A stretch of DNA of 64,000 bases from Salipiger pentaromativorans (GTDB lineage Bacteria; Pseudomonadota; Alphaproteobacteria; Rhodobacterales; Rhodobacteraceae). How positions within the stretch are numbered: position 1 is the stretch's first letter; each line of letters opens with the position of its first letter. Under the pieces are notes generated by a model. The model made no database searches. It was not told the DNA's origin and saw only the letters and a list, made by a program, of their open reading frames with translations. The translations under genes were made by a program, and so were the position numbers. The stretch lies in assembly GCF_024721115.1 (NCBI RefSeq), contig NZ_JAMDHK010000019.1, forward strand, positions 1-64,000, in the 5' to 3' direction. Positions 17,917 to 55,905 of the stretch are shown here, one piece after another.

Positions 17917-17929
17917 GTCGCGTCCTCCT

Positions 17930-18577: not shown

Positions 18578-18714
18578 CAGGTTTCCTTCCATCTCGCGCC
18601 GCGCCGACGGACAGGCAGGGTGCTGCGGCAGGACAGTCCTACATCCGCGAGCGGCGGCTGCGCCAGAGCACATTCTGAGACACTAGCAAAATACACCAAA
18701 ATTTCGATAAAAAT

Positions 18715-18727
18715 ATTGCATTGCAAT
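18715..18727. promoter_or_regulatory. 13-bp palindrome, candidate IclR operator 1
   Basis: ATTGCA-T-TGCAAT lies in the 299-base divergent region between the permease gene and the binding-protein gene, which is AT-rich and holds nothing else I recognise. The identical palindrome, read on the other strand, occurs at 22196-22208 next to the IclR gene of this cluster. Confidence 0.6.
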
Positions 18728-18876
18728 AAAAGTCTATCATTTTTACATCACTCCCCTGGAAAGGGCGTTTTTCCCCTCCCGGCCCCGGCGGTTTGCCTTG
18801 CCATCCGCTGATTCGCGTCGCTTGAGTAGCCTCAGAGCCGCGCCAGGTGCCGGCCGACAGAGACAGGGAAACCATA

Positions 18877-37166: not shown

Positions 37167-37614
37167 GCTTGGAACCTATTTCGGTTTCTCTGACAGACGG
37201 GCAATTACCGGGAACACGATTTTTCGGGACATATCGGAATCCGACATATGCCATCCGGAAAATCGCAATGCTCACGAATTTATTCGACGGAGGCGGTGGC
37301 CTCGCTGTCAAAAAAGGTATCCGAGCGCCCGCGGACCACAATCATACTTTCGGTGGACGGGTTTCGGAACGAAACGAACACGGCAAAACGGAATCCTGTA
37401 AACGGCAAATGTTTATTTTTCGCATAAGTTTTGTTCAGAATTGCGGACACTGCCTTTTTGGCAGCACTGCATGTCAACCTTTCGAATTACAGGCACGCAT
37501 ACCGCATTCCCCGCGTTTGCAACCGCGCCGGAGCATCGCGCTCCGTGCCCATACCGCCACTGCGCTTTCAAAACGCGCGGCAGGCGGACAGACCGACGCC
37601 AACGGAAAGATGCG
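37167..37614. other. Divergent promoter region of the Dpp-type transporter
   Basis: A 448-base gap between the SBP (minus) and DppC-type (plus) genes, AT-richer than its surroundings. It contains an imperfect palindrome around CGGAATCCG flanked by CATAT on both sides (about 37230-37250), close to the SBP start. I see no gene or small RNA signature. Confidence 0.5.
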
Positions 37615-38523
37615 ATGCCAACCACACCGACCGACATACACAGCCCAGACCCCGTCCCGCCGCGCCGGCGGGTGCTGGCGTTTCTTTCGTCCCGCCGGAC
37701 ACGGAGCCGGGCACCGCTGTCGCTATCCATGCGGCTGGGCGCGGCGCTTTTGCTGTTCTATCTGGGGATCGCGCTCCTGTCGCTGGTCTGGACACCGCAC
37801 GACCCGAACCTGCCCGGCGCCGGGCCCAGCTATGCCCCGCCCAGCCTGGCCTTTCCGCTCGGCACCGACCGGCTGGGCACCGATCTTCTGTCGCGGCTCA
37901 TGGCGGGCACGCGCTACGATCTGGGGATCTGCATCGCCGCCGTGGTCCTGTCCTTCAGCATCGGCACGGTGCTGGGCACCATCGCGGGCTATTTCGGCGG
38001 TGCCACCGATGCGGCGATCATGCGCATGGTCGAGATCTTTCAGGCCTTTCCCGCGCTGCTTTTCGCCATGCTTATCGTGCAGGCGGTGGGCGCGGGCGTG
38101 GTCAATGTGATTGCCGTGCTCGCCTTTGTCGGCATGCCCGACTACCTGCGCCTCGCGCGCGGCGAGGTACGGGCGCGGCGCGACTGGCAATATGCCGAGG
38201 CCGCGCGGCTGGTCGGCAACAGCTCCTGGGGCATCGCCTTCAAGCACCTGCTGCCGAACAGCCTCGGGCCGCTGCTGGCCTTCACCTCGATCAACGCCGC
38301 CTTTGCGGTGCTGGTGATCGCAAGCCTCGGGTTCCTTGGCATCGGACTCAGCCCGGACGCGCCGGAATGGGGCAATATGATCGCTCGCGGACAGGATGGC
38401 ATCATGACCGGCCAGTGGTGGGTATCGCTTTTTCCCGGCATCGCCATCCTCGGCATGACCGGCGCGTTCTACATGCTGGGCGACGCGCTGTCCGATCTCT
38501 TTGACCCAAGGAGGCGCGGATGA
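37615..38523 (+). CDS. Dipeptide/oligopeptide-type ABC permease (DppC family)
   Basis: A 302-residue permease with the DppC/OppC traits: an N-terminal Pro/Arg-rich cytoplasmic stretch, one helix ([20 protein letters not shown]), [20 protein letters not shown], and the EAA region ([20 protein letters not shown]). I chose the ATG at 37615, preceded by GGAAAG; the frame is open further upstream without domain content. It overlaps the next ATPase by four bases and needs the DppB partner on the other transcript. Confidence 0.9.
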
Positions 38524-39326
38524 GCGACCCCATTCTTCAGGTCGAGAACTTCAGCGGCGGGTTTCTGAGCAAGACCGGCGAGATGACCCGGATCCTGCAC
38601 GATGTCAGCTATACGCTGGAGCGCGGCAGGATCACCGCCGTGGTCGGCGAGACCGGCAGCGGCAAATCCGTCACCGCACTGTCGGTGCTGGGCCTTCAGG
38701 CGCCGACCTTCCGGCGCCTCTCGGGCCGTATCCTTTTCGACGGCACCGACCTGACCGCAATTGGCCCGAAAGAACTGCGGGCCCTGCGCGGCAGCCGCAT
38801 CAGCATGGTGTTCCAGGACGCACGCGCCGCGCTGAACCCGGTGTTCTCCATCGGTCAGCAGCTGGCCGACACATACCGGCTGCATCATGGCGGCTCACGC
38901 CGGGCGGCGATGGCGCAGGCGGTGGACGCGCTGCGCCGCGTGCATATCCCCGAGCCCGAACGCCGCGCCCGGCAATATCCGCACGAGTTTTCCGGCGGCA
39001 TGGCGCAGCGCGCCATGATCGCCATGGCGGCACTGATCTGCACCCCCGAACTCCTGATCCTCGACGAGCCCACCACCGGGCTCGACGTGACAACACAGGC
39101 CGAGATCATGGATCTGGTGCTCGATCTCGCCCGCGCGCGCAATCTCACCGTCTGCCTGATCACCCACGACCTCGGGGTGGTGGCGGAAACCTGCGATCAT
39201 GTGGTGGTGATGAACCGGGGCGTGGTGGCCGAAACCGGCCCCACCGAGCGCATCTTCACCGCGCCGCGCGATGCCTACACAAAGCGCCTTCTGGGCGCGA
39301 GCCAGCTTGCGGAGGCCGCCGAATGA
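38520..39326 (+). CDS. Dipeptide/oligopeptide-type ABC ATPase (DppD family)
   Basis: A 268-residue ATPase with Walker A GETGSGKS (about 43-50), signature FSGGMAQR, Walker [13 protein letters not shown] and [16 protein letters not shown]. It is shorter than the usual 320 residues and ends without the C-terminal oligopeptide-type Cys motif that its partner carries. It overlaps both neighbours by four bases and pairs with the following DppF-type subunit as the ATPase heterodimer. Confidence 0.92.
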
Positions 39327-40315
39327 GGACCTATCCCAAAGATTACCCCATCGTTCAGATCCGCAACCTGCACAAGCTCTTCCCCGTGGGGCGCGGTCAG
39401 AACCTGCACGCCATCGACGGCGTGGATTTCGATCTGCGTCCGGGGAAGACGCTGGCGCTGGTGGGCGAGAGCGGCTCGGGCAAATCCACCGTCGCGCGCT
39501 GCATCGTGCGGCTGATCGAGCCCAGTTCCGGCGATGTGGTGCTGCACGGCAATTCGATCCTGCCGCTGACCTCGCTGCAAATGGCGCGGCAGTACCGTCA
39601 GTTGCAGATGGTCTTTCAGGATCCCAACGCCTCGCTCAACCCGCGAATGACCGTGCGCAAGGTGCTTGAAGAGCCGCTGAAACTGCATCTCGACATGAGC
39701 GCCGGCACCCGCGCCTCCCGGCTGCGCGAGCTGATCGAAATGGTGGGGCTGACCGCCGCGCATCTCGACCGTTACCCGCACGAGCTGAGCGGCGGCCAGC
39801 GCCAGAGGGTGGGGATCGCGCGGGCGCTGGCGATCAACCCGGAGGTGGTGCTGCTGGACGAGCCCACCGCCTCGCTGGATGTCTCGGTGCGCGGGCAGAT
39901 CCTCGATCTGCTGAAGCGGTTGCAGAGCGAGCTGAACCTCGCCTTCCTCTTCATCAGCCACGACTTGCAGGTCGTCCGCCACGTCGCCGACGAGGTGGCG
40001 GTGATGTATCTGGGCCGGATCGTCGAACAGGGCCCGACGGAGGAGATTTTCCGCCATCCGCGCCACCCCTACACGCAGGCGCTGATCTCGGCGGCCCCCG
40101 TGGCGCAATGGGGGGTGGAGCGCCACCGCGTGCGGCTGGCGGGCGAGATCTCGACCCCGGTCGATCCGCCCGCGGCCTGCCGCCTTGCCGGGCGCTGCCC
40201 CATCGAACAGCCGGTCTGTTCCAGGCGCGACATGCCCTTGCAGGAGATCGGGCCGGACCACCGCGTCGCCTGCCCCTTTGCGGTGCAGGCGCTGCTGGAC
40301 CGCAAAACCGGGTGA
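39323..40315 (+). CDS. Dipeptide/oligopeptide-type ABC ATPase (DppF family)
   Basis: A 330-residue ATPase: Walker [10 protein letters not shown], signature LSGGQRQR, Walker [13 protein letters not shown], and the C-terminal oligopeptide-transporter extension with CRLAGRCP and [10 protein letters not shown], whose Cys residues match the [4Fe-4S]-type site of DppD/DppF proteins. It starts in an ATGA overlap with the DppD gene. The flavin reductase gene follows after 46 bases, linking uptake to the oxygenase chemistry. Confidence 0.93.
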
Positions 40316-40361
40316 GCCACCGACTGGCGACATCCCATAAGACCAAGCGAAAGCGAACGAC

Positions 40362-40913
40362 ATGACCTCAATCCAAACGGCGGCGCAACCCGCCGCCCAG
40401 ATGCTTCCCGACGGCACAGCCGATCTCTTCCGCCAGCTCTGGCGCGGCGTCGGCGCGACCGTTGCGCTGATCGCCACCGAACACGAAGGTGCCCGTCACG
40501 CCATGCTGGCCACCGCCGTCACCTCGGTGTCGATGGCGCCGCCGTCGCTGCTGGTCTGCGTGAACCGCGATGCCTCGGCCTTTGCCGCGCTCGAGGCGCG
40601 GGGGGCGTTTTCGCTGGGCATCCTGCCTGCGGCGCAGCACGGAACCGGGGCGGCCATCGCGCGGGCACCGGGCGCGGAGCGGTTCGACCACGGCACATGG
40701 CAGACACTCGACGCACCCGAGCGGCGCAGCCATGGCCTGCCCTGGCTGGCAGAGACCGAGGCGACGCTGTTCTGCACCGTCGACACCCATTTCGACCACG
40801 GCACGCATTGCCTGTTCATCGCCACGATCGAAACCGCAATCGGCGCCGCGCCACAGGACCCCCTGCTCTATCAGAGCGGCCGCTTCGGACGGTTCGCGGA
40901 AATCGCGTCATGA
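40362..40913 (+). CDS. Flavin reductase family protein, first
   Basis: A 183-residue FMN-binding split-barrel reductase: RQLWRGVGATVALIATEHEG, MLATAVTSVSMAPPSLLVCV and NRDASAFAALEARGAFSLGI match the flavin_reduct domain. It would reduce FMN with NAD(P)H for a two-component monooxygenase, most simply the NtaA/DszA-type enzyme on the divergent transcript, or the LLM enzyme at 29.7 kb. The stop overlaps the amidase start (ATGA). Confidence 0.87.
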   Translation: MTSIQTAAQPAAQMLPDGTADLFRQLWRGVGATVALIATEHEGARHAMLATAVTSVSMAPPSLLVCVNRDASAFAALEARGAFSLGILPAAQHGTGAAIARAPGAERFDHGTWQTLDAPERRSHGLPWLAETEATLFCTVDTHFDHGTHCLFIATIETAIGAAPQDPLLYQSGRFGRFAEIAS

Positions 40914-42379
40914 CCGGGACAAAGAGCGGCGACGACATCTGCCGCATGAGCGGCACCGAACAGGCGCGGCTGATCCGCGAGAAACAGCTTTCTCCGGTCG
41001 AGGTCACAAACGCGGTTCTCGACCGCATTCACGCGCTCGACCCGGTATTGCACGCCTTCTGCACGCTGACCGAAGAGCGCGCCTTGCAGGAGGCCCGCGC
41101 CGCCGAGGCTGCGGTCATGGCGGGCGCTCCGCTGGGGCCGCTGCATGGCGTGCCGGTCTCGGTCAAGGATCTGATCTGCACCAAAGGCGTGCGCACGATG
41201 CTGGGCTCGGAGGCCTACAAGGAGTTCATCCCCGACGAGGACGACATCGTCGTCGAGCGGCTGAGCGCGGCCGGTGCGGTGCTGCTGGGCAAGACCAACA
41301 CCGCCGAGCTGGGCTATGGCGCGGTGGGGCACAACAATATCTCGCCCACCACCCGCAACCCGTGGGACCTGAGCAAGACGCCCGGCGGGTCGAGCGCGGG
41401 CAGTGCTGCGGCGGTGGCCGCCGGTATGGGCGCGCTGACGCTCGGCAGCGACGGCGGCGGCTCGATACGCAGCCCGGCGTCGTTTTCCGGGCTCTTCGGG
41501 ATGAAACCCTCCTTCGGGCGCGTGCCCGCCTATCCCGGCTGCCGCGACCCGCGCTATCCCGGTCTGTCCTCCTGGGAAAGCACCGAACATATCGGCCCGC
41601 TCACCCGGACCGTCGCGGATGCCGCGCTGATGCTCTCGGTCGTCTCCGGCCCCGACATGCGCGACCGCCATTCCCTGCCCGGCCCCGAATTCGACTGGGC
41701 CGACACGCCCCGCCGCAACATCCGGGGCAAGAAAATCGCCTATACGCCGGATCTCGGCGGCTGCCGCGTCGATCCCGAAGTGCGCGCGCTCACCGCCGCC
41801 GCCGCACAGGTCTTTGCCGGGGAATATGGCTGCGAGGTGGTCGAGGACGCGCCGGACCTGATGGATGTGCTGGACCTTCACTGGATGATCATCCTGCGCG
41901 ACAGCGACCTTGTCGGCATGCGCGATCTGCACCGGCAGGGCCTCATCTACATGCCGCATCTGCGCGCTGCCATGGAGCAGAGCCATAGCGCCGAGGATCT
42001 CACCGAGGCCGCCAAGCTGCGGCAGGAGGTGGTCAACCGGATGTGGCGCTTCATGGCGCGATACGACCTCTTCCTTTGCCCGACCGTGGCCTATCCCGCC
42101 TTCGACATCGACACCTATGGCCCGAGCCATATCGGCGGCGCGCCGGTGGAAAGCCTGTCGGGCGGGCTGCCCTCGCTCTGGCCCTTCAACCACACCGGCC
42201 AGCCCGCCGCCTCGGTGCCCTGCGGCTGGACCTCGGAAGGGCTGCCGGTGGGGCTTCAGATCGCCGGGCGCCATCTCGACGATCCGCTGGTCATGGCGGC
42301 CTCTGCCGCCTTCGAGGCCGCGCGGCCCTGGGCGCATCTCTGGCCCGGCATCGTGACGGCAGAGGAGGCGCGGGTCTAA
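40910..42379 (+). CDS. Amidase signature-family amidohydrolase
   Basis: A 489-residue amidase. The catalytic triad is readable: Lys86 (VSVKDL), cis-Ser161 (TPGGSSAGS) and nucleophile Ser185 (DGGGSIRSPA), with the usual 24-residue spacing between the serines. It hydrolyses an amide, carbamate or urea-like bond in the cytoplasm. It is coupled to the flavin reductase gene and ends in a four-base overlap with the convergent MFS gene. The likely substrate is the compound imported by the Dpp-type transporter or its oxidised product. Confidence 0.9.
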   Translation: MTGTKSGDDICRMSGTEQARLIREKQLSPVEVTNAVLDRIHALDPVLHAFCTLTEERALQEARAAEAAVMAGAPLGPLHGVPVSVKDLICTKGVRTMLGSEAYKEFIPDEDDIVVERLSAAGAVLLGKTNTAELGYGAVGHNNISPTTRNPWDLSKTPGGSSAGSAAAVAAGMGALTLGSDGGGSIRSPASFSGLFGMKPSFGRVPAYPGCRDPRYPGLSSWESTEHIGPLTRTVADAALMLSVVSGPDMRDRHSLPGPEFDWADTPRRNIRGKKIAYTPDLGGCRVDPEVRALTAAAAQVFAGEYGCEVVEDAPDLMDVLDLHWMIILRDSDLVGMRDLHRQGLIYMPHLRAAMEQSHSAEDLTEAAKLRQEVVNRMWRFMARYDLFLCPTVAYPAFDIDTYGPSHIGGAPVESLSGGLPSLWPFNHTGQPAASVPCGWTSEGLPVGLQIAGRHLDDPLVMAASAAFEAARPWAHLWPGIVTAEEARV

Positions 42380-44336: not shown

Positions 44337-44828
44337 ATGGGGGAGAGCTTGACGCAGGGCATGGGGATCGGCGCGTTCTGGCAAGTGCTGGGCGAACGCG
44401 CCATCGGGGCGACGGTTGTCACCACGCGCAGCCGCGACGGGCGGCCAAACGGGTTTCTCGGCCTCTCCACCGCCCATGTCTCGGCAAGCCCTCCCACGCT
44501 TCTGGTCTCGATCGACCGCAAGACCTCGGCGCTGGCCGATATTCTGGAAAGCGGTCGCTTCGCGGTGAATTTCCTGGCCGCCGAGGCCATGGACCTGGCC
44601 GCCCAGTTCGGCAAGAGCGGTCCCAAACCCTTCGATGACGCGCTGTGGGAGAGCTTTGCAACCGGCGCGCCCGTTCTCAGAACCGCGCTTGGCCTCTTCG
44701 ATTGCGAGGTCTCCCGCGTCATCGAAGAGGGCGATGTCGCCATCGTGATCGGCAAGGTGGCAGGCGCCCGCTCGACCGGAGAAGGCGCCCCGCTGATCTT
44801 TTTCCGAGGCGCGTTTCAGGGCGCCTGA
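44337..44828 (+). CDS. Flavin reductase family protein, second
   Basis: A 163-residue FMN reductase: FWQVLGERAIGATVVTTRSR, NGFLGLSTAHVSASPPTLLV, and SIDRKTSALADILESGRFAV match the flavin_reduct fold more canonically than the first reductase in this region. It stands alone, with its own palindrome-bearing promoter region. It could serve either flavin monooxygenase of the region. The 223 bases that follow it hold no gene I can see. Confidence 0.88.
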   Translation: MGESLTQGMGIGAFWQVLGERAIGATVVTTRSRDGRPNGFLGLSTAHVSASPPTLLVSIDRKTSALADILESGRFAVNFLAAEAMDLAAQFGKSGPKPFDDALWESFATGAPVLRTALGLFDCEVSRVIEEGDVAIVIGKVAGARSTGEGAPLIFFRGAFQGA

Positions 44829-45051: not shown

Positions 45052-45948
45052 CTACGCCGCCGAGCGCGCGCGCTGCCTTTTCTCGAGCCGCGCAAAGAGG
45101 CGGGAGAGCGCGAAACAGAGCAGGAAATAGAACAGCGCGACCACGATATAGGTCTCGAAACGGCGCTGCGAGGAGACCGCGATTTCGGTGCCCACGAAGG
45201 TCAGCTCCTGCACCGAGATCAGCGAGACGATGGAGCTGTCCTTGACCAGCATGATGAACTGGTTGGCGAGCGGCGGGGTGACCGCCCGGAATGCCTGCGG
45301 AAAGACCACCAGACGGAAGGTCTGCCAGGGCCCGAGCCCGAGGCTCTTCGCGGCTTCGGTCTGCGCCAGCGGCACGGACTCGATGCCCGCCCGCACGATC
45401 ACCGCGATATAGGCGGCCTCGAACATGGCGAGGCTCAGAACCCCTGCGATGAAATTCTCGAACCGTTCCGGCGGTCCGGCGAGCAGGCCGAGAACACGTT
45501 CGCCGGTGGGTCCGAGACCCCGCGCCCAGCTGTCGACCCCGAGTGCGGGGATGATCTGGGACGACACGAAGAAATAGAAGACGAAGACGAAGACCAGCGG
45601 CGGCACATTGCGGATGAGCCCCACATAGGCGCTGCTGCCGAGCCGGGGCAGCAGCCGCTTGCGGCTGGCGAAGACGCCCAGAAGAATGCCGAGGACGCTG
45701 GCCAGAACCATGGCCCAGATCGACATGCGGATCGTGGTCAGCAGCCCTTCGACCAGAAGGTTCGGTTCCCACCAGCCGGTTTCGGGATTGGGGCGCACCA
45801 GCGCGCGCGGCAGGAAGGACCAGTCCCAGCGATAGACCAGCACCTCCGACACCCGGTACCAGAGAAAGAAGAGAAAGCCCGCCACCGCGCCGACGATGAC
45901 GAGATCGACAAGGCCGAAGCGGCTTTTCCGGTCGGGATCGGGATACAT
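45052..45948 (-). CDS. Amino acid-type ABC permease (distal)
   Basis: A 298-residue permease of the AapQ/BztB-like type, larger than HisM because of an N-terminal extension with an extra membrane helix (LVDLVIVGAVAGFLFFLWYR) and a periplasmic insertion. EAAKSLGLGPWQTFRLVVFP is the ATPase-contact loop. It follows the SBP gene on the minus strand and ends the operon. No ATPase gene follows, which is unusual, because aap/bzt-like operons normally end with the ATPase. Confidence 0.88.
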   Translation of the reverse strand: MYPDPDRKSRFGLVDLVIVGAVAGFLFFLWYRVSEVLVYRWDWSFLPRALVRPNPETGWWEPNLLVEGLLTTIRMSIWAMVLASVLGILLGVFASRKRLLPRLGSSAYVGLIRNVPPLVFVFVFYFFVSSQIIPALGVDSWARGLGPTGERVLGLLAGPPERFENFIAGVLSLAMFEAAYIAVIVRAGIESVPLAQTEAAKSLGLGPWQTFRLVVFPQAFRAVTPPLANQFIMLVKDSSIVSLISVQELTFVGTEIAVSSQRRFETYIVVALFYFLLCFALSRLFARLEKRQRARSAA

Positions 45949-46002
45949 GTCCTGCGCGTGTCCTTGTCAGGCGGGGGCGGGTGGGCCGCCCCCGTCCGGG
46001 GA

Positions 46003-46836
46003 TTATTCCGCGACGAGATCCGCCCAGGGGCGGCCGCCGAACCAGTAATCGTGACGCTCTTCAAGCCAGCCGTCCTGCGTGCGCACGAGGATCCAGTTGT
46101 TGAAGAAGTTCAGCGCGTCCGGGTCGCCCTTGCGCACGGCAAAGGATTCCGAGGACGGGTCGATCATCACGTCGGTGGGGGCGAAGACCACATCGGGGTT
46201 TTCATAGATCGTGAAGGCGGGCAGCGGCTGCGAGGACAGCATGACCGTGGCGTTGCCGTTCAGCACTTCCTGCACCACCTGCGCCTGATCGTCGAACAGC
46301 CGCAGCGTGGCCTTGGGGAAATGCGCCTTGATATATTCGCAGGGCGTCGCGCCCCGGCGGCAGGAGAAGGTCACGTCGCTCGCGTTGAAATCGTCGGGCC
46401 AGGTCTTGCCCTCGGATTCGGCGATATGCGCCATGACACCGACCGAGCTGTGCGCGTAAGGCGCGGTGAAGTTGACCGTCAGGTTGCGCGCGGGCGTCAC
46501 CGACATGCCGCCGATGATCACGTCGAACTTGCCCGCGATCAGCGCCGGAATGATGCCGTCCCAGGCGGTGGGCACGAATTCCACCTCGACGCCCATGTCC
46601 TCGGCGAGCTTGGTGGCCACGTCGATCTCAAAGCCGATCAGGTCGCCGTTCTTGTCGCGCATCGCCCAGGGCACGAAGGTGGACATGCCGACCTTGAGCA
46701 CGCCCGAACGCTTGATGGATTCGATGACGCTGTCCTGCGACAGCGCCGACTGGGTGTCCTGCGCGACGGCGCCCTGCGGGGCCGCAAGGCTGACCGCGGC
46801 CAGCGCGGCGAGCAATATCTTCCGGATCGGTTTCAT
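46003..46836 (-). CDS. Amino acid-type ABC substrate-binding protein (SBP family 3)
   Basis: A 277-residue periplasmic protein with signal peptide (LLAALAAVSLAAPQGAVAQD) and the family-3 core: VLKVGMSTFVPWAMRDKNGD, LIGFEIDVATKLAEDMGVEV, and FDVIIGGMSVTPARNLTVNF. The Asp and Arg positions that clamp the alpha-amino and carboxyl groups in amino-acid binders appear kept (FEIDVATKLA; TPARNL). It lies between the two permease genes, and so belongs to one transporter, likely for an amino acid or close derivative. Confidence 0.9.
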   Translation of the reverse strand: MKPIRKILLAALAAVSLAAPQGAVAQDTQSALSQDSVIESIKRSGVLKVGMSTFVPWAMRDKNGDLIGFEIDVATKLAEDMGVEVEFVPTAWDGIIPALIAGKFDVIIGGMSVTPARNLTVNFTAPYAHSSVGVMAHIAESEGKTWPDDFNASDVTFSCRRGATPCEYIKAHFPKATLRLFDDQAQVVQEVLNGNATVMLSSQPLPAFTIYENPDVVFAPTDVMIDPSSESFAVRKGDPDALNFFNNWILVRTQDGWLEERHDYWFGGRPWADLVAE

Positions 46837-46888
46837 TGGGAACTCCTGTTGGTGTTGGGTCTGGTTTTTGTTTGGTCTTGGTGGCTGG

Positions 46889-47740
46889 TTATCGGTCTTG
46901 CCGGCTGCGCCGGGTGCGGCGTTCCAGCCATGTGGCCACCGCGGACAGGCTGACGGTGAGCAGGAGATACATGCCCGCCACCGTCAGCCAGATTTCGAAG
47001 GTCATGAAGGTATCGGCAATGGCGTTGCGCCCCTCGTTCGTCAGGTCGAAGACGGCGATGGTCGAGACGATGGCCGAGCTTTTCGTCAGGTTCACGAGCG
47101 ACGAGGTGAGCGGCGGCAGCATCAGCGGCACCGCCTGCGGCAGCACCACCTTGGCATAGGCCGGGCCGGGCCGCAGACCGAGGGAGGAGGCCGCCTCCCA
47201 TTGCGAGCGGGGCACCGACAGGATGCCGCCCCGGATGATCTCGGAGATAAAGGAGGCCTCGAAAACCGCGAGGCAAAGCACGCCGGTCCAGAACCGCTCG
47301 ATCCCGAGGATCGGCGAGAGCACGAAATAGAAGAGATACATCTGCACCAGCAGCGGCGTGTTGCGGATGGCCTCGAGATAGATGGTCGAGAGCCAGCGCC
47401 CGGCAAAGGAGCGCGACAGCCGCATCAGCGCCACCGCGAGGCCGATGGCAAAGGCCAGCAGCGCCGCCCAAAGCGTGATTTGCAGTGTCACGCCAAGCCC
47501 GCGCATCAGCGGCCCCCAGATCAGCTCGCCGTCGATGACGCGGTAGAAATAGCGCGGCACCCGATACCATTGCCAGTTGTAGCGCATCGACTGGGCGCCC
47601 GCGACGACGCCCCAGAGGATCAGCCCGCTGCCCAGGGCGAAGATCAGCCAGTCCGAAAGGTTGCGTTTGCGCAGTTCCAGCCGCGTGCGGCGCTGGTGCT
47701 CGAGAAACGCTCCCTCGTGATCTGTATCGGTCATCGTCAT
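46889..47740 (-). CDS. Amino acid-type ABC permease (proximal)
   Basis: A 283-residue permease with an N-terminal helix (WLIFALGSGLILWGVVAGAQ), IYLEAIRNTPLLVQMYLFYF, and the EAA loop EAASSLGLRPGPAYAKVVLP. It is first in the minus-strand operon permease-SBP-permease and is divergent from the XRE-cupin regulator. Candidate operators lie in the divergent promoter. The two permeases would form the heterodimeric pore. Confidence 0.88.
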   Translation of the reverse strand: MTMTDTDHEGAFLEHQRRTRLELRKRNLSDWLIFALGSGLILWGVVAGAQSMRYNWQWYRVPRYFYRVIDGELIWGPLMRGLGVTLQITLWAALLAFAIGLAVALMRLSRSFAGRWLSTIYLEAIRNTPLLVQMYLFYFVLSPILGIERFWTGVLCLAVFEASFISEIIRGGILSVPRSQWEAASSLGLRPGPAYAKVVLPQAVPLMLPPLTSSLVNLTKSSAIVSTIAVFDLTNEGRNAIADTFMTFEIWLTVAGMYLLLTVSLSAVATWLERRTRRSRQDR

Positions 47741-48004: not shown

Positions 48005-48613
48005 ATGGGTGACGAGGGCGACCGGGAAGCGCAGAAAAAGAGCCTCGATGTGCTGGTCGGGCTTGCGGTGCGCAGCCATCGCAATCAGGCCGGGCTGACG
48101 CTGTCCGAGCTTTCGGAGCGCTCCGGCGTCTCCACTCCGATGATCTCGAAGATCGAGCGCGGCCAGGTCTCGGCCTCGCTGAGCACGCTCAACGCGCTGG
48201 CCAGTGCCGTGGGCGTGCCGATCATCAATTTCTTCGCGGCGACGGTCGAGATCGGAGAGGTCTCTCTGGTGCGCGCGGGCGAGGGGATCTCGGTGCGCCG
48301 GGCGGGCTCGACCTATGGGCACAATTACAAGCAGATCGGCCGGATCGAGATCGAGGGGCAGTCCTTTGAATCCTATCTCATCACGCTTGAGAACGAGGTG
48401 ACGGGCACGCCGATCTTTCTGCATCCGGGCGTCGAGCTCATGCATTTCATCGAAGGCGCGCTGTCTTATCGGGTCGGCGCCGAGATCTACGACCTCAAGG
48501 CAGGGGATACGCTGACCTTTCAGGCGACGGTGCCGCATGGCCCTGTGCGTATGGAATCAGCGCGGGTGCAATTTTTGACGGTTATCTCGCGTACCGGCAA
48601 AAATTTCACTTGA
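48005..48613 (+). CDS. XRE-family regulator with C-terminal cupin domain
   Basis: A 202-residue one-component regulator. The N-terminal HTH_3 domain (about 16-72) contains GLTLSELSERSGVSTPMISK and IERGQVSASLSTLNALASAV. The C-terminal cupin (about 110-198) contains FLHPGVELMHFIEGALSYRV and LKAGDTLTFQATVPHG. XRE-cupin proteins generally sense a substrate of the adjacent catabolic operon. It is divergent from the transporter and directly upstream of the six-gene operon, with a candidate site overlapping its own stop codon, so it probably controls both. Confidence 0.92.
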   Translation: MGDEGDREAQKKSLDVLVGLAVRSHRNQAGLTLSELSERSGVSTPMISKIERGQVSASLSTLNALASAVGVPIINFFAATVEIGEVSLVRAGEGISVRRAGSTYGHNYKQIGRIEIEGQSFESYLITLENEVTGTPIFLHPGVELMHFIEGALSYRVGAEIYDLKAGDTLTFQATVPHGPVRMESARVQFLTVISRTGKNFT

Positions 48614-48619
48614 AGAAAA
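48604..48619. promoter_or_regulatory. Third TTTTCTTC-type site, before the desaturase operon
   Basis: Read on the minus strand this is TTTTCTTCAAGTGAAA, matching site A at 13 of 16 bases. It overlaps the stop codon of the XRE-cupin gene and ends about 50 bases before the next start. Confidence 0.5.
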
Positions 48620-48637
48620 AATTATCCCCTGAGTATA

Positions 48638-48659
48638 CCTCCGATATGCGTATCGGAGG
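48638..48659 (+). promoter_or_regulatory. Hairpin enclosing the Shine-Dalgarno site of the desaturase-like gene
   Basis: CCTCCGATA (48638-48646) pairs perfectly with TATCGGAGG (48651-48659) around the loop TGCG. The GGAGG at 48655-48659 is the ribosome site, nine bases before the ATG at 48669. The folded leader would hide it completely. There is no T run, so a terminator is unlikely. It could equally be a palindromic DNA operator. Confidence 0.55.
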
Positions 48660-48668
48660 ATCTTTCCC

Positions 48669-49640
48669 ATGGCCCAAGAGGTCCTGACCCCCATCACCCA
48701 GGCGCTGAACGACGGTGCCCTGACCCGGCGCGAGCTGAAGGCGCTGATGCGGCGCTCCGACGGGCCGACCTTTGCGCGGCTGGCGATCTGGATCGCGGCG
48801 CTTGGCGTCACCGGTTCGCTGGTCTGGCTCGCCATGGGCACATGGCTGGTCTGGCCCGCGATGTTCCTGCACGGCATTCTCATGGTGCATCACTTCGCGT
48901 TGCAACACGAATGCGTGCATTACACCCCGTTCCGCACCCGCTGGCTGAACGATGTGGTGGGCAATATCTGCGGCTTCCTGATCGGGCTGCCGCATCAGTA
49001 TTTCCGCTACGAGCATTGCGACCACCACACCCACACCCAGCTCAAGGGCTACGACCCCGAGCTGATCGAACTGCCGATCTCGGTGTGGAAATATCTCTGG
49101 TATATCTCCTCGGTCCCCTACTGGACCGCGAAGGTGAAAGAATTCTCGCGCCATATCGCGGGCAGGATGTCGGAGGGCGACAAGGTCTTCGTGCCGAAAG
49201 AGGCCTATGCCACGGTGTTCTGGGAAGCGCGGATCATGGCGGGGCTTTATGCCGCGATCCTCGTGCTGATGATCGCCACCGGCTGGTGGGCGCCGCTCTG
49301 GTACTGGTGGCTGCCGGTGCTGCTGGGCGAGCCGGTGATGCGCTGGATCCGGCTGACCGAACATGTGGGCCGGCCCAATGTGCGCGACATGCGCGAGAAC
49401 ACCCGCACCAACCTGATCTCGGCCCCGCTCGCCTTTCTGAGCTGGAACATGAACTATCACGCCGAGCATCACTACGCCGCCTCGGTGCCCTATTACGCGC
49501 TGCCGAAACTGCACAAGAAGCTCGACGGCTATGTCTATGTGGAGCCGCGCGGCTATCTCGGCGCGCATCTCGACATCCTGGCGCAGCTGCGCGGGCGCAA
49601 GCCGCGCAGTGACACGCCCGCAGAGGGCGGCGCCGCATGA
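48669..49640 (+). CDS. Membrane fatty acid desaturase-family di-iron enzyme
   Basis: A 323-residue integral membrane enzyme with the three His boxes of the desaturase/hydroxylase family: HECVH (80-84), HCDHH (116-120) and HAEHH (264-268), and membrane helices near 36-56, 60-76 and 188-222. Such enzymes desaturate or hydroxylate with O2 and electrons from a ferredoxin or cytochrome. The Rieske ferredoxin gene overlaps it by four bases, a direct hint about the electron donor. The setting with amino-acid-type uptake and hydrolases suggests hydroxylation of an amphiphilic or amide substrate rather than membrane lipid desaturation. Confidence 0.87.
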   Translation: MAQEVLTPITQALNDGALTRRELKALMRRSDGPTFARLAIWIAALGVTGSLVWLAMGTWLVWPAMFLHGILMVHHFALQHECVHYTPFRTRWLNDVVGNICGFLIGLPHQYFRYEHCDHHTHTQLKGYDPELIELPISVWKYLWYISSVPYWTAKVKEFSRHIAGRMSEGDKVFVPKEAYATVFWEARIMAGLYAAILVLMIATGWWAPLWYWWLPVLLGEPVMRWIRLTEHVGRPNVRDMRENTRTNLISAPLAFLSWNMNYHAEHHYAASVPYYALPKLHKKLDGYVYVEPRGYLGAHLDILAQLRGRKPRSDTPAEGGAA

Positions 49641-49963
49641 CCACGGCCCGGCGCGAGAAAACCTGGCAGGATCTGATCGCCGTGGCCGATCTCGAACCCG
49701 GCGACGCGACACCGGCCCTGCTTGGGCGGCGCGAGCTGGCGGTTTACGACACGGTGGACGGCATCTTCGTCAGCCTCGCGCGCTGCACCCATGGGGCGGC
49801 CAATCTCTGCGACGGCTATTTCGACGGGCGCCATATCGAATGCCCGCTGCATCAGGGTCTGTTCGACGCCCGCACCGGCCAGCCCAGGGCGGCGCCCGCG
49901 CGTGTGCCGCTGCGGATGATCGAGGCGCGGGTGGTGGACGGCACGGTGCAGGTCTTTCTCTAG
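49637..49963 (+). CDS. Rieske [2Fe-2S] ferredoxin
   Basis: A 108-residue soluble Rieske protein. The cluster ligands are Cys50-x-His52 (ARCTHG) and Cys69-x-x-His72 (ECPLHQG). It resembles ferredoxin components of ring-hydroxylating or nitrite-reductase small-subunit type. It overlaps the desaturase-like gene, so it most likely donates electrons to that di-iron centre. No dedicated ferredoxin reductase is encoded in the operon. Confidence 0.92.
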   Translation: MTTARREKTWQDLIAVADLEPGDATPALLGRRELAVYDTVDGIFVSLARCTHGAANLCDGYFDGRHIECPLHQGLFDARTGQPRAAPARVPLRMIEARVVDGTVQVFL

Positions 49964-49975
49964 GAGGCAACGCGA

Positions 49976-50563
49976 ATGACAGCCTGGATCAAGATGATCC
50001 CCGATGACGAGGCGGACGACACGCTGCGCGAGGTGCTGGATCTGGCGCGCACCCCGCATGGCACGGTGGACAATGTGATGCGCGTGCATTCGCTGCGCCC
50101 CAACACGATGCGCGGCCATGTGATCCTTTATCGCGCCGCGCTGCACGACCCGGCCAACACGCTGCCCGAATGGCTGCAGGAGACGATCAGCTCCTACGTC
50201 TCGATCCTGAACGACTGCCCCTATTCGCTGGCCAACCACTGGAAGAACGCCAGCCACCTGATCGGCGATCCCGAACGGGCGGAGGCCATCAAGGCCGCGC
50301 TCGACCGGCGGAGCCCGGACGCGGCGTTCGACGGGCGCGAGCTGGCGCTGCTGCGCTATGCCGAAAAGCTGACGCTGCATCCCGGCCAGATGGCCGAGCC
50401 CGATGTGGCGGCGCTGCGCGAGGCGGGATGCGACGACGGGCAGATCCTCGAAGCGAACCAGATCGTCGGCTATTTCAACTATGTGAACCGGCTGCTGAAC
50501 GGGCTTGGCGTCAGCACCGCCGGGGATGTGGTGGGCTACTACGCCCCGGACGAGGCATCATGA
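49976..50563 (+). CDS. AhpD/CMD-like peroxidase-related protein with CxxS
   Basis: A 195-residue all-helical protein of the carboxymuconolactone decarboxylase/AhpD superfamily (peroxidase-related subgroup): HSLRPNTMRGHVILYRAALH, ISSYVSILNDCPYSLANHWK and LTLHPGQMAEPDVAALREAG. The redox motif CxxCxxxH is changed to CPYSLANH: Cys81 and His88 stay, but the second Cys is Ser84. Disulfide cycling in the usual way is therefore not possible, and a non-redox or altered role is likely. It overlaps the AstE-like gene by four bases. Confidence 0.82.
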   Translation: MTAWIKMIPDDEADDTLREVLDLARTPHGTVDNVMRVHSLRPNTMRGHVILYRAALHDPANTLPEWLQETISSYVSILNDCPYSLANHWKNASHLIGDPERAEAIKAALDRRSPDAAFDGRELALLRYAEKLTLHPGQMAEPDVAALREAGCDDGQILEANQIVGYFNYVNRLLNGLGVSTAGDVVGYYAPDEAS

Positions 50564-51612
50564 CCGAAGGCTTCGCCACGCCAGATTTCAGCGCCACGCG
50601 CCTCTCGCCCGAGATCGAGCTGTCCCGGCGCGGCAAGCACAGCGGCTGGTTCGGTCTGGTGCATTCGGACAACGCCAACCCGCTGGGACTTTACCCGATC
50701 CCCGCGCTTTGCATCGCCGGGCGGCCCGGCCCGACGGTGCTGCTGACCGCCGGGGTTCATGGCGACGAATACGAAGGCCCCGCCGCGCTGATGCGGCTTT
50801 TCGAGGCGCTCTCGGACGCGGACATAACGGGCCGGCTGATCATCTTGCCGCAACTCAACGCCCCCGCCTGCCGCGCGGGCACGCGGGTGTCGCCGCTCGA
50901 CGGCGGCAACCTCAACCGGCTCTGCCCCGGCTCCGCCGAGGGCACACCCACGGAACAGATCGCAGACCTGCTTTGCCATGTGCTGTTCCCGGTGGCCGAT
51001 GCGGTGATCGACTTGCATTCCGGCGGCGCGGCCTCGTGGTTCGTGCCCTGCGCGCTGGCGGCGCGGCGCCCCGATGGCGGGCTCGACGCGGCGAATATGG
51101 CGATGGCGGCGGCTTTCGGCACCAAAACCGTCTGGGTGCTGGGCGCCGCCAATGACAGCCGGTCCGTCAATGGCGCGGCCACGGCGGCGGGGCTGCCCTG
51201 CATCGCTGCCGAGCTTGGCGGCGGCGGCTCGGTCGGGCTGGCGGCGCTCGGCGCGGCAGAGGCCGGGCTGCGCGGCACGCTCGCCCATCTGGGTGTGCTG
51301 GCCGAGGGTCCGGCGCCGTGCCGCGAGCAGAAATGCGTGGAGCTTGCCGGTCCCGGTTACCGGGTCGTGGCACCCGAGCGCGGGCTTTTTGTGCCCTTCG
51401 TCGAGGCGGGGGAGAGCGTGACAGCAGGCACCCCATTGGGCGAGCTGCGCTTTCCCGACACCCCCGCCCGCCCCGCTTTGCCGGTCCTTGCCACGGTCTC
51501 CGGCCTCATCCTCGCCGAGACCCGCCGTGCCGCCGTGTTGCAAGGCGATTTCCTGATGTTCGTCGCCCCGGAGATCCCCGAGAGCGGCCCCGGAGAAGGA
51601 GCAACCCCATGA
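50560..51612 (+). CDS. Succinylglutamate desuccinylase/aspartoacylase-family deacylase
   Basis: A 350-residue zinc hydrolase of the AstE/AspA branch of M14-like enzymes. Zinc ligands are visible as His67 and Glu70 (AGVHGDEYEG) and His153 (DLHSGG), and GNLNRLCPG supplies the substrate-site Asn-Arg. The C-terminal half has the beta-barrel-like segment found in deacylases such as DoeB (VVAPERGLFVPFVEAGE). It would remove an acyl group from an N-acyl amino acid-like substrate. It overlaps both neighbours by four bases, so it is central to the operon. Confidence 0.87.
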   Translation: MTEGFATPDFSATRLSPEIELSRRGKHSGWFGLVHSDNANPLGLYPIPALCIAGRPGPTVLLTAGVHGDEYEGPAALMRLFEALSDADITGRLIILPQLNAPACRAGTRVSPLDGGNLNRLCPGSAEGTPTEQIADLLCHVLFPVADAVIDLHSGGAASWFVPCALAARRPDGGLDAANMAMAAAFGTKTVWVLGAANDSRSVNGAATAAGLPCIAAELGGGGSVGLAALGAAEAGLRGTLAHLGVLAEGPAPCREQKCVELAGPGYRVVAPERGLFVPFVEAGESVTAGTPLGELRFPDTPARPALPVLATVSGLILAETRRAAVLQGDFLMFVAPEIPESGPGEGATP

Positions 51613-52574
51613 CCTACGCCACCGCACGCAAGACCCTTGCGGACGAAATCCCCGTCATCGACATCACGCCGCTGCGCGATGGCAGCGATCCCGACGGGGT
51701 GGCCCATGCGCTGCACGCCGCAAGCACCGGGCTGGGCTTTATCTATGTGCGCGGGCACGGCATCCCCGAGGCGGCGATCGACGCCGCGCGCGCCGCCGCC
51801 TATGCGTTCTTCCATGCCGACCCCGCGCAGAAGGAAGAGGTGCGCGCCGGCAGCAACCATCGCGGCTGGCTCGCTCAGGGTGGGGCCAAGATGCAGGACG
51901 GCGCCAAGGCCGATCTCAAGGAAAGCTTTATCTGGGGGTTTCAGGATGCCGATGGCGTCACCCCCGACGATCACCCGCTGCGCGGCAACAACCGCTGGCC
52001 CGGTTTCCAGCCGGAGCTGGAAGAGGCCGCGATGACCTATTTCAGCGCCGCCCATGAGGTGGCCCATCACCTGATGCGGGGTTTTGCGTGCGGGCTCGGG
52101 CTGGAGGAGGGGTTCTTCCTCAAGACCGCCGACAAGCCGCTGTCGCGCGGGTCGTTCGTCTATTACCCGCCGCAGGATGCCAGCCATGGCGCCGATCAGT
52201 TCGGCGTTGGGCCGCATACGGATTTCGGCGTGCTGACCGTGCTTTGCCAGGACGATGTGGGCGGGCTTCAGGTACAGGACGTGACCGGCGAGTGGATCGA
52301 GGCGCCGCCCATCCCCGGCACGCTGCTGGTCAATGTCGCCGATCTGCTCGCCCGCTGGACGGACGGCGCCTATAAATCGACGCCCCACCGGGTGGTCAAC
52401 GCCTCGGGCCGGGAACGCATGTCGCTGGTGGTGGCCTACGATCCCAACCCCGAAACCCGCATCGACCCGCGCGAGGTCTTTGGCCCGGAGCATGGCGCGG
52501 CGGAAGAGCCGATCACCTGCGGCGACTATCTGGTCTGGCGCTTCGGCAAGGCCTTTACCTACGGGAAGAGCTGA
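51609..52574 (+). CDS. Fe(II)/2-oxoglutarate-type oxygenase (isopenicillin N synthase-like)
   Basis: A 321-residue double-stranded beta-helix oxygenase. The N-terminal DIOX_N-like region has IPVIDITPL and GFIYVRGHGIPEA. The iron ligands are His203 and Asp205 (GPHTDFG) and His260 (STPHRVVN), and Arg270 with Ser272 (RERMSL) would hold the 2-oxoglutarate carboxylate. It would hydroxylate or oxidatively cleave an operon intermediate. AAGGAG precedes the ATG, which overlaps the stop of the deacylase gene. Confidence 0.9.
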   Translation: MTYATARKTLADEIPVIDITPLRDGSDPDGVAHALHAASTGLGFIYVRGHGIPEAAIDAARAAAYAFFHADPAQKEEVRAGSNHRGWLAQGGAKMQDGAKADLKESFIWGFQDADGVTPDDHPLRGNNRWPGFQPELEEAAMTYFSAAHEVAHHLMRGFACGLGLEEGFFLKTADKPLSRGSFVYYPPQDASHGADQFGVGPHTDFGVLTVLCQDDVGGLQVQDVTGEWIEAPPIPGTLLVNVADLLARWTDGAYKSTPHRVVNASGRERMSLVVAYDPNPETRIDPREVFGPEHGAAEEPITCGDYLVWRFGKAFTYGKS

Positions 52575-52576
52575 GC

Positions 52577-53641
52577 ATGGACGGCGTCGTTCCCGGACCG
52601 GAGGCGCAGGCCCTGACCGAAGCCGCGCGCAATCTGCTGCTGGATTGCGCCGGGCTTGTGCCGGGCGACCGGGCGGTGATCTGCGTCGAGGATGCGGCGG
52701 ATCGCTGGTACGATGCCGCCACGCCCTTTGCCGTCGCCGAAGAGGCCGCGCGGCTTGGCATCGCGGTGACCTTCTGCGCGGTGCGCCCGCCGCAGGAGGC
52801 GCAGGCCGCCGAGGTGGACGCGCTGCTGGCCGGTCCCGAAACGGTGATCTTCTTCGCACGGCTTGGCGATCAGGGGCGGTTTGCCGCCGCCGAGGCCGGG
52901 CGGCGCGTCATGGTCTATGCCCGCAACGCCGCCGATTTCGCCTCGCCCTTCGGGCAGGTGCCCTACCGCGTGACCCATGCGGTGAAACAGGCCGTCGACC
53001 GCATCCTGCTGAGCGCCGGGCAGATCGAGATCCTGTGCCCGAACGGCACCCGTCTTACCGGCAGGGCCGCGGGCGACAGCCCGGCCAGCCCGCCCGATGT
53101 GACCACGCTGCGCTTTCCCCTCGGCGTGCCAGCGCCGGTGCCCGCGGCGGGCTTTTCCGGCGAGATCGTGCTGACCGACAGCCTCACGCCCACCGGGAAC
53201 CGCGCCTATGCTACTCCGGTGCTGCTGCTGGAAACCCCCGTCGTCGCGCAGATCGAAAACGGCCGGATCGCTGGGTTCGAGGGCGCCGCGCGGGATGTCG
53301 GCGCGATCCGCGCCCATCACGAGCGGGTCGGCGAGCTTTTCGGGATCGACCCCTATGTCGTGCACAGCTGGCACGCGGGGCTGCATCCCGGCTGCCGTTT
53401 CTTTCCGCCGGTGGGGCGGGATCGTGATTACTGGTCGAACACCGTGTTCTCCAGCCCGCGCCTGCTGCATTTCCACACCTGCGGCACCGCACCGCCGGGC
53501 GAGATCAGCTGGAACATCATGGATGCGACGGTGCGTGTCGATGGCGTGCCGCTCTGGTCGGCGGGCCGTCTGCATGTGGCGCATTTCCCCGAGCTTGCCG
53601 GGGCGGCGGCCAGCGACGCCCGGCTGGCAGCGCTCTACTAA
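52577..53641 (+). CDS. M29 aminopeptidase/NicX-superfamily-like protein, metal motif altered
   Basis: A 354-residue protein whose overall pattern resembles the M29 aminopeptidase T fold and its ring-cleaving relative NicX (2,5-dihydroxypyridine dioxygenase): GQIEILCPNGTRLTGRAAGD, VAQIENGRIAGFEG, then YVVHSWHAGLHPG and WSNTVFSSPRLLHFHTCGTA. The usual H-x-D metal pair near the C-terminus seems to read S-x-N (Ser311-Trp-Asn313), although His263, His266 and His270 could supply other ligands. It ends the six-gene operon, two bases after the oxygenase gene. I regard the family call as probable, the reaction as open. Confidence 0.6.
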   Translation: MDGVVPGPEAQALTEAARNLLLDCAGLVPGDRAVICVEDAADRWYDAATPFAVAEEAARLGIAVTFCAVRPPQEAQAAEVDALLAGPETVIFFARLGDQGRFAAAEAGRRVMVYARNAADFASPFGQVPYRVTHAVKQAVDRILLSAGQIEILCPNGTRLTGRAAGDSPASPPDVTTLRFPLGVPAPVPAAGFSGEIVLTDSLTPTGNRAYATPVLLLETPVVAQIENGRIAGFEGAARDVGAIRAHHERVGELFGIDPYVVHSWHAGLHPGCRFFPPVGRDRDYWSNTVFSSPRLLHFHTCGTAPPGEISWNIMDATVRVDGVPLWSAGRLHVAHFPELAGAAASDARLAALY

Positions 53642-53716: not shown

Positions 53717-54913
53717 TTGCCCCTGCCCGTCATCGACAACCGCGCCGCCCGCCGCCTGTTTCTCGACCGGCATCTTCTGCTGCGTCCGGCAGGCGGGCCG
53801 GGCAGGGGCGCGGATCTCGACGGGGTGCTGCACGGGCTGGGTTTTGTGCAGGTCGACAGCGTCAACACGCTGGCGCGGGCGCATGACCTGATCCTCTGGT
53901 CCCGGCGCGGGCAGTACCGGCCTCGGGCGCTCGACCAGCTGGTCGCGCGCAGCCGGACCGCGTTCGAGCACTGGACCCATGATGCCGCCGTCATCCCGAT
54001 GTCGTTCTACCCGATGTGGCGGCTGAAATTCACCCGCGACGAGGCGCATATGCGGGCGCGCTGGCCGCAATGGCGGCGGGACGGCTGGGCGGACGAGGTC
54101 GACACCGTGCTCCGGCATGTGGCCGACAACGGCCCCACCTCCTCGCGCGATGTGGGCGAGGGCGAACCCAAGGGCTCGTCGGGGTGGTGGGATTGGCACC
54201 CGTCGAAGACCGCGCTCGAATTTCTCTGGCGCTCGGGCCGTCTGGCGATCTGCCACCGCGAGGGCTTCCGCAAGGTCTACGATCTCAGCGAGCGGGTGAT
54301 CCCCGAGGATCCCTTCGCCGCCCGCTCGCAGACGGCAGAGATCGTGGACTGGGCCATGTGGGAGGCGCTTTCCCGGCTCGGGTTCGGCACCAGCGGCGAG
54401 TTGGCGGCGTTTTTCGAGATCGTCACGCGCGACGAAGCCAAAGCCTGGTGCGCCGGGGCGCTGGCCTCGGGCCGGATCGTCGAGGCCGAGGTCGCGATGG
54501 CCGATGATACGCGGCGGCGCTGCGTCACGACCCAAGCGACGCTCGACGGGCTGGCGGCGCTGCCCGAGCCTTCGGCACGGGTGCGGCTGCTCTCGCCCTT
54601 CGATCCGCTGCTGCGCGACCGGGCGCGGGCGGAACGGCTGTTCGGGTTCCACTACCGGATCGAGATCTTCGTGCCCGAAGCCAAGCGGCGTTACGGCTAT
54701 TACGTGTTTCCGGTGTTGCAGGGCGACCGGCTGATCGGGCGGATGGACGTCAAGCGCGAGGGGCCGGTACTGAAAGTGCAGGCCTTCTGGCCCGAGACCG
54801 GCATTCGCATGGGCAAGGCCCGCAGCGCCGGGCTGCTGGCCGAGCTGGAGCGGATCCTGCCGCTTGCGGGCTGTGACGATCTGGCCTTTGCGGAAGGCTG
54901 GATGCGGGGATAA
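53717..54913 (+). CDS. YcaQ/AlkX-type winged-helix DNA glycosylase
   Basis: A 398-residue protein of the HTH_42/YcaQ family, which unhooks DNA crosslinks and removes alkylated bases. It has GFVQVDSVNTLARAHDLILW, including the QxD catalytic motif of the AlkX group, then SRRGQYRPRALDQLV, HDAAVIPMSFYP and a C-terminal part with LLSPFDPLLRDRARAERLFG and FHYRIEIFVPEAKRRYGYYV. The start is probably TTG at 53717. It is 75 bases after the catabolic operon and may be co-transcribed, but functionally separate. Confidence 0.85.
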   Translation: MPLPVIDNRAARRLFLDRHLLLRPAGGPGRGADLDGVLHGLGFVQVDSVNTLARAHDLILWSRRGQYRPRALDQLVARSRTAFEHWTHDAAVIPMSFYPMWRLKFTRDEAHMRARWPQWRRDGWADEVDTVLRHVADNGPTSSRDVGEGEPKGSSGWWDWHPSKTALEFLWRSGRLAICHREGFRKVYDLSERVIPEDPFAARSQTAEIVDWAMWEALSRLGFGTSGELAAFFEIVTRDEAKAWCAGALASGRIVEAEVAMADDTRRRCVTTQATLDGLAALPEPSARVRLLSPFDPLLRDRARAERLFGFHYRIEIFVPEAKRRYGYYVFPVLQGDRLIGRMDVKREGPVLKVQAFWPETGIRMGKARSAGLLAELERILPLAGCDDLAFAEGWMRG

Positions 54914-55515: not shown

Positions 55516-55905
55516 ATGCCCGCCGTCCTGCTGGACACCCATGCCTGGGTCTGGTCCTTCGCCGACGACAGCCTTCTCTCCCCCGCCGCCCGTGCCGCGA
55601 TCCTAAGTGCCGAGGCGGTGCTGGTGAGCCCGATCTCCTTTTTCGAGATCGGCCAGAAGGTGCGCATCGGGAAATGGCCCGAAATGGCTGGAATGGTCTC
55701 TGATCTGCCGCAGATCCTGCGCGATCAAGGCGGACTGCTGGCACCCTTCACGCCCGAAATCAGCCTGCACGCCGCGCTCTGGGACTGGGTGCATCGCGAC
55801 CCGTTCGACCGGATCATCGGAGCCACCGCCGCCGAGGCGGGGCTGCCGCTGATCACCCGTGACGCGGCCTTTGCCGGACGCTCCGAACTGCAAATCGTCT
55901 GGTGA
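55516..55905 (+). CDS. PIN-domain toxin (VapC-like ribonuclease)
   Basis: A 129-residue PIN-domain protein with the acidic cluster: Asp7 (LLDTHAWVW), Glu in SPISFFEIGQKV, Asp in DPFDRIIGATAA, and Asp in ITRDAAF. VapC-type toxins cut tRNA or rRNA unless bound by the antitoxin. Lying six bases from the flhB 3' end, it may act as a stability module for the plasmid and protect the neighbouring region from loss. Confidence 0.9.
   Translation: MPAVLLDTHAWVWSFADDSLLSPAARAAILSAEAVLVSPISFFEIGQKVRIGKWPEMAGMVSDLPQILRDQGGLLAPFTPEISLHAALWDWVHRDPFDRIIGATAAEAGLPLITRDAAFAGRSELQIVW

Follow-up and report, generated by a model that had tools for sequence, protein, structure and literature searches.

NicX is the 2,5-dihydroxypyridine 5,6-dioxygenase of Pseudomonas putida and has been described in a structure paper (PMC7910607). 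In homarine catabolism, N-methylglutamate dehydrogenase (Mgd) takes part, according to a 2026 paper as cited in PMC13390433. DoeB is the N-acetyl-diaminobutyrate deacetylase of ectoine catabolism. A six-gene operon of Salipiger pentaromativorans, located at positions 48669-53641 of a stretch of 64,000 nucleotides (contig NZ_JAMDHK010000019.1, positions 1 to 64,000; hereafter the window), resembles NicX and DoeB systems in part, and possibly homarine catabolism. Most likely it represents one of several variants of a widespread bacterial pathway that opens the ring of N-heterocyclic carboxylates. There is an even chance that it encodes an inducible aerobic pathway that opens the ring of a small carboxylated N-heterocycle without a free alpha-amino group. 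Reactions, their order, induction and substrate are inferred from gene content and order, their conservation, the predicted fold of the last protein, the swapping of parts among loci and the binding-site residues of an importer. Homarine (N-methylpicolinate) is tentatively named as the single likeliest substrate.

The operon consists of six open reading frames:

48669..49640, plus strand: putative membrane di-iron hydroxylase of the fatty-acid-desaturase family (Pfam FA_desaturase, 131 bits; His boxes)
49637..49963, plus strand: Rieske [2Fe-2S] ferredoxin (Pfam Rieske, 54 bits)
49976..50563, plus strand: AhpD/CMD-family protein without CxxC, the motif being CPYS (Pfam CMD, 25 bits; TIGR01926 over cut-off)
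50560..51612, plus strand: AstE/aspartoacylase-type zinc hydrolase, near DoeB but not DoeB (Pfam AstE_AspA_cat, 130.6 bits; HxDE and DxHSG motifs)
51609..52574, plus strand: 2-oxoglutarate (2OG)/Fe(II) oxygenase, IPNS-like (Pfam DIOX_N, 79 bits; 2OG-FeII_Oxy, 89 bits)
52577..53641, plus strand: NicX-fold protein of the M29 superfamily, proposed ring-cleaving dioxygenase (structure model; no Pfam match)

An earlier reading of the window from the letters alone (the sequence-only reading) had named these six gene types correctly, as judged by Pfam, NCBIfam and, for the sixth protein, a structure model. The coordinates it gave agree with the open reading frame list, and the gaps of -4, 12, -4, -4 and 2 bases bear out its run of four-base overlaps and 2-12 base gaps. 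The XRE-cupin regulator and the amino-acid-type importer that it saw ahead of the operon are present. The regulator ends 55 bases before the first operon gene on the same strand, and the importer genes at 45052-47740, in the order permease, binding protein, permease, run divergently from the six genes. The genome-neighbourhood search proposed as a check found the full order, together with regulator and importer, in Pseudoruegeria sp. HB172150 (L002) and Actibacterium naphthalenivorans (L003), with 58-88% identity of the six proteins. A third locus, L103, has the order without AstE. Because of this recurrence, the arrangement is beyond chance. A literature search by gene-type terms found no paper matching at least four of the six gene types, and within this literature the earlier statement that no published pathway has this order stands. 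It represents one form of a widespread family of operons, which the 2026 homarine paper may already cover.

The proposed ring opening is assigned to the sixth protein, which the sequence-only reading had called M29/NicX-like. The structure model strongly backs this and favours NicX, the top match, 6.5 Z units over the M29 aminopeptidases in second place. A true M29 peptidase was rejected because the protein has no Pfam match and NicX ranks above the peptidases; PF02073 (Peptidase_M29) matches nothing in the whole genome. A sequence search of the PDB with this protein gave nothing significant (best E 0.94 alone, 0.49 as a profile), and NicX was found by the model only. The modelled fold suggests a ring-cleaving dioxygenase. 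Unlike in the nicotinate pathway, no nicotinate gene other than the NicX-like one was recognised in the operon. A further NicX/M29-superfamily protein, weakly similar to NicX (E 5e-7), is encoded at 5151-6224 of L152, about 20 kb from a NicX-fold locus of the same genome.

Related loci exchange their oxygenases. Comparison covered 59 loci outside the window, 55 after dropping four duplicates; 52 of these have a NicX-fold gene. Beside it, a VanA-type Rieske oxygenase is encoded in 38 loci and a 2OG oxygenase in nine, which include four related AT-rich assemblies and are thus not independent; none has both and five have neither. Loci for which the NicX-fold gene was the sole selection criterion, 32 in number, show the same exclusion (23 VanA-type, eight 2OG, none with both, one with neither). 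The 2OG oxygenase of the window probably takes the place of the VanA-type Rieske oxygenase of most relatives.

The hydrolases and importers vary as well. The binding proteins were split into two types by similarity to that of the window, which is type I. Among the 55 loci, type I goes with desaturase, AstE and MATE genes and type II with a small CMD protein and creatininase. AstE relatives (over 50% to references) occur with importer type I only (9/30 versus 0/25), creatininase with type II only (11/20 versus 0/35). The desaturase accompanies type I binding proteins in 26/30 versus 5/25 loci, a contrast inflated by the inclusion of desaturase-picked loci; when only the 32 loci selected through the NicX-fold gene are counted, the figures are 6/10 versus 2/22 (p 0.005). 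By the cut-offs used, five of the 59 loci have both importer types (L002, L105, L107, L114 and L119), although the protein assigned to type II in L114 is distant and possibly part of a different importer. In L103, the desaturase occurs with only a type II importer in reach. Within the 52 loci with a NicX-fold gene, the AhpD-like gene is present in 35, a sarcosine-oxidase-type beta subunit in 14 and the N-formylglutamate deformylase HutG in six. The simplest reading is a shared core of one oxygenase, the NicX-fold protein and the AhpD-like protein, with two feeding branches and unrelated hydrolases in one slot.

The VanA-type loci on plasmids of Ruegeria, Leisingera and Paracoccus (L049-L053) share with the window the NicX-fold gene, an AhpD-like protein without CxxC and, in four of five, an amino-acid importer; L051 also has the desaturase and the Rieske ferredoxin. 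They differ by the Rieske oxygenase instead of the 2OG enzyme, by a creatininase or other hydrolase, by the annotation of the NicX-fold gene as 'hypothetical protein' and, in L050-L052, by the presence of sarcosine-oxidase-type genes. The operon of the window is a mixture. It has the type I importer and the desaturase, yet its regulator is 49-54% identical to those of five CMD-type loci and only 32-38% to those of most type I loci, with the exception of L111 (type I, 56%).

The importer provides evidence for the substrate class. The features upstream of the operon are:

45052..45948, minus strand: amino-acid-type ATP-binding cassette (ABC) permease, perm1, importer type I (Pfam BPD_transp_1; same location in L002 and L003, at 80-81% identity)
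46003..46836, minus strand: periplasmic solute-binding protein, SBP_bac_3 (Pfam; Arg for the carboxylate present, Ser in place of the Asp for the amine; closest solved structure 9e2b, E 4e-86)
46889..47740, minus strand: amino-acid-type ABC permease, perm2 (Pfam BPD_transp_1; conserved in L002 and L003)
48005..48613, plus strand: XRE-family regulator with C-terminal cupin (Pfam HTH_3 and Cupin_2; 69-76% identical in L002, L003 and L103)
48610..48639, plus strand: putative promoter TTGAAG-18-TATACC at the regulator stop (alignment of four loci, partly conserved)

In binding proteins of this family, an arginine binds the alpha-carboxylate and an aspartate the alpha-ammonium, as in the HisJ and GlnH structures. 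Hits with 180 or fewer aligned residues were left out of the residue counts. The arginine is kept in all 51 binding proteins (31 type I including that of the window, 20 type II). The position of the aspartate holds serine in 43 and alanine in eight, and aspartate in none. Seven other binding proteins of the same genome, controls that align at only 22-31%, have aspartate (5) or glutamate (1) at this position or could not be aligned (1). Among solved relatives, 5t0w and 3k4u have the aspartate and 9e2b lacks it. Retention of the arginine with loss of the aspartate therefore points to a ligand with a carboxylate and without a free ammonium group. The importer likely takes up such a compound, a betaine or a pyridinium carboxylate. 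Beside the importer (45052-47740), no ATPase gene was found. The nearest match in the window to a related ATPase (17179-17916, 50% identical) belongs to a second amino-acid-type importer at 17179-19638 with a binding protein at 18898-19638. Among possible ATPase partners for the importer beside the operon, this one lies closest.

For the six genes, the partly conserved TTGAAG and TATA-like boxes 18 bases apart suggest a promoter, which a consensus scan did not list. An inverted repeat with 9-base arms (CCTCCGATA TGCG TATCGGAGG, 48638-48659) covers the ribosome-binding region of the desaturase gene and is not conserved in L002, L003 and L103.

The first enzyme has the general Pfam domain and His boxes of the desaturase family; three His boxes are present in all 31 relatives of more than 50% identity. 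It scores 41 and 33 bits on two bacterial desaturase equivalogs (DesA/DesB type) with cut-offs of 500, and a sequence search of the structure database gave no match with an E of up to 0.1. A search of 390 genomes with the desaturase yielded 28 matches scoring 435 bits or more, spread over 27 genomes with its own among them; the next match had 204 bits. The resulting 27 regions from 26 other genomes all encode the Rieske ferredoxin along with the hydroxylase, and 24 encode the NicX-fold protein. The ferredoxin is likely the electron donor of the preceding di-iron enzyme.

The substrate guess of the sequence-only reading was an N-acylated, long-chain or heterocyclic amino acid derivative. A heterocycle is best supported. 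The long-chain option was rejected by the equivalog scores and is backed by nothing except the desaturase name; N-acylation fits an intermediate better than the substrate. A route in which the desaturase acts on an acyl chain, AstE removes the chain and the M29-like protein is a peptidase is improbable. Amide hydrolysis is known in the AstE and M29 superfamilies, and M29 aminopeptidases are the second structural match of the NicX-fold protein. This is countered by the low equivalog scores, by the margin of NicX over the peptidases and by AstE relatives in only 9/55 loci; a small polar compound would suit both the oxygenase swap and an importer of the type-3 small-molecule kind.

The AstE-like protein has the catalytic domain and the HxxE...H signature of the AstE/AspA superfamily, with zinc motifs in the protein and in 10/10 relatives. 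It shares family and zinc motifs with DoeB, and its nearest solved relatives are DoeB structures (6twm and 6twl, E 5e-53). This similarity is what speaks for an ectoine-like substrate with the AstE-like enzyme acting as DoeB. Such a role is very improbable: the protein reaches 189.5 of the 402.7 bits required by the DoeB equivalog model, the binding protein reaches 62 of 191 bits on the EhuB model, the gene partners differ from those of DoeB, and most loci lack AstE or have another gene in its place. A function as deformylase or deacylase is proposed. The sequence-only reading speaks of three oxygen-related chemistries; the AhpD-like protein should not be counted among them. CxxC is absent from all 35 relatives, 34 of which have CxxS/A. 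A peroxidase role was dropped because this redox pair is missing.

The proposed pathway would start with uptake by the divergent importer. Next, the compound would be hydroxylated by the membrane di-iron enzyme with electrons from the Rieske ferredoxin. A second hydroxyl group would come from the 2OG oxygenase or, in most relatives, from the VanA-type Rieske oxygenase. The NicX-fold protein would cleave the ring and leave an N-formyl-type group, which the AstE-like hydrolase would strip to yield an amino acid or N-methyl amino acid. If N-methylated, the product would lose its methyl group through a sarcosine-oxidase-type enzyme whose gene lies elsewhere in the genome, and the AhpD-like protein would be accessory. 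Homarine could be opened between C5 and C6 in the fashion of NicX, giving an N-formyl-N-methyl-glutamate-like product and, after deformylation, N-methylglutamate. Sarcosine-oxidase-type genes and a PurU gene (L050) near some loci suggest an N-methyl group. On contig C38 of the same genome (84001-120000; L071 and L072), genes for a trimethylamine monooxygenase (over the curated cut-off), SoxB/SoxA-type proteins (over subfamily cut-offs), a GlnIII/GmaS-like protein and PurU are clustered. The cluster is predicted to encode a trimethylamine/N-methylglutamate pathway, and the SoxB/SoxA-type genes may be those of Mgd, judging by their neighbourhood.

Several findings weigh against the proposed ring-opening pathway. 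The NicX-fold protein shares 15% identity with NicX, and in sequence alignments no residues clearly correspond to the NicX iron ligands His318 and Asp320. In these alignments, the NicX Fe(II) ligands His265, Ser302, His318 and Asp320 do not align one-to-one with the family's invariant H266, H298 and H300 and near-invariant E309. A close Mgd clade occurs in 12/23 genomes with the NicX-fold gene versus 50/175 without (p 0.03), a weak tendency at most, so strict dependence on Mgd was rejected; only two of the nine genomes with 2OG-type loci have an Mgd match of 73-74% grade. AstE does not lie between AhpD and the 2OG oxygenase in L103 and L004. Finally, HutH (6), HutU (5) and HutF (3) among the 52 loci could point to a histidine derivative.

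In that case the NicX-fold protein would open the ring of the derivative (methylhistidine, hercynine or similar) and Hut enzymes would complete the breakdown, and the HutG matches would fit. In L053, hutH, hutG and hutU lie about 7 kb off, with a glycerol-3-phosphate cluster between. This is an unlikely explanation, though less so than the N-acyl route: a HutH match is missing in 46/52 loci, the linkage is equally explained by a shared N-formylglutamate end product, and histidine carries a free alpha-amino group, whereas the binding proteins have lost the amine aspartate.

The operon could also be one form of the homarine operon that the 2026 paper reports (Ferrer-Gonzalez et al., Nat Microbiol 11:1531), with only the swapped oxygenases and the hydrolase being new. 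The cited participation of Mgd and the wide spread of the family fit. So do the CMD-type loci, which encode, as in L053, AhpD, the NicX-fold protein, a Rieske oxygenase, a small CMD protein, a creatininase and an XRE regulator. The homarine operon is reportedly named homABCDER, and this gene count would fit CMD-type loci such as L053. Homarine catabolism is possibly alike in distribution, N-methyl amino acid end products and amino-acid-type importer. The operon of the window, for its part, has a desaturase with Rieske ferredoxin, a 2OG oxygenase and AstE. Ruegeria pomeroyi is absent among the named plasmid matches and among the names listed for the best 120 of 1446 protein matches. The desaturase/AstE loci and the CMD loci use different importers, which suggests a second substrate. 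That the operon is no more than a version of the homarine operon is doubtful. Slightly more credit, still well short of even, is given to the view that desaturase-type loci form another upper branch, so far undescribed, with an importer to itself. In this branch, the di-iron hydroxylase and Rieske ferredoxin would prepare an N-heterocyclic carboxylate other than homarine for the shared core, the 2OG and Rieske oxygenases would be functionally equivalent, and the NicX-fold protein would have a new iron-ligand set.

The NicX-fold gene is widely distributed. Of 198 genomes of the taxonomic family, 26 contained a match; three matches were short fragments (E above 1e-5) and were dropped, leaving 23 genomes. 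Genus g44, to which R. conchae belongs as judged by a near-identical locus, has the gene in 24 of 54 genomes. Twelve plasmid records of Ruegeria, Leisingera, Paracoccus and relatives carry the gene, as do AT-rich (30% G+C) alphaproteobacterial assemblies named AG- and AH-, which their naming suggests are single cells or bins of marine origin. At the protein level, searches with a Ruegeria copy yielded 1446 relatives and searches with the L006 copy 453, with clusters of up to 577 sequences; the first 120 of each were listed. The AT-rich L006, L007 and L008 encode AhpD, CMD, 2OG and NicX-fold proteins, an importer, a class-V aminotransferase and a flavin adenine dinucleotide (FAD) oxidase, and L006 and L008 have a distant desaturase (27%).

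Other genes surround the operon. An AlkZ-like DNA glycosylase (53717-54913) follows directly, then a PIN-domain (VapC-like) gene (55516-55905). Upstream, the region 37400-42379 has ABC importer genes (ATPase matches 38529-40060), presumably of the oligopeptide type, then a flavin reductase (40362-40913) and an amidase. It is possibly a separate catabolic island. A further flavin reductase is encoded at 44337-44828.

If the proposed pathway is true, a large family annotated as 'hypothetical protein' gains a testable role in the turnover of dissolved organic nitrogen. The loci represent a natural experiment: one slot may be open to either of two oxygenases of unrelated families, another to two or three hydrolases that are likewise unrelated, and a NicX fold possibly uses different metal ligands. 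The pairing with importers offers a direct route to the substrates through binding assays.

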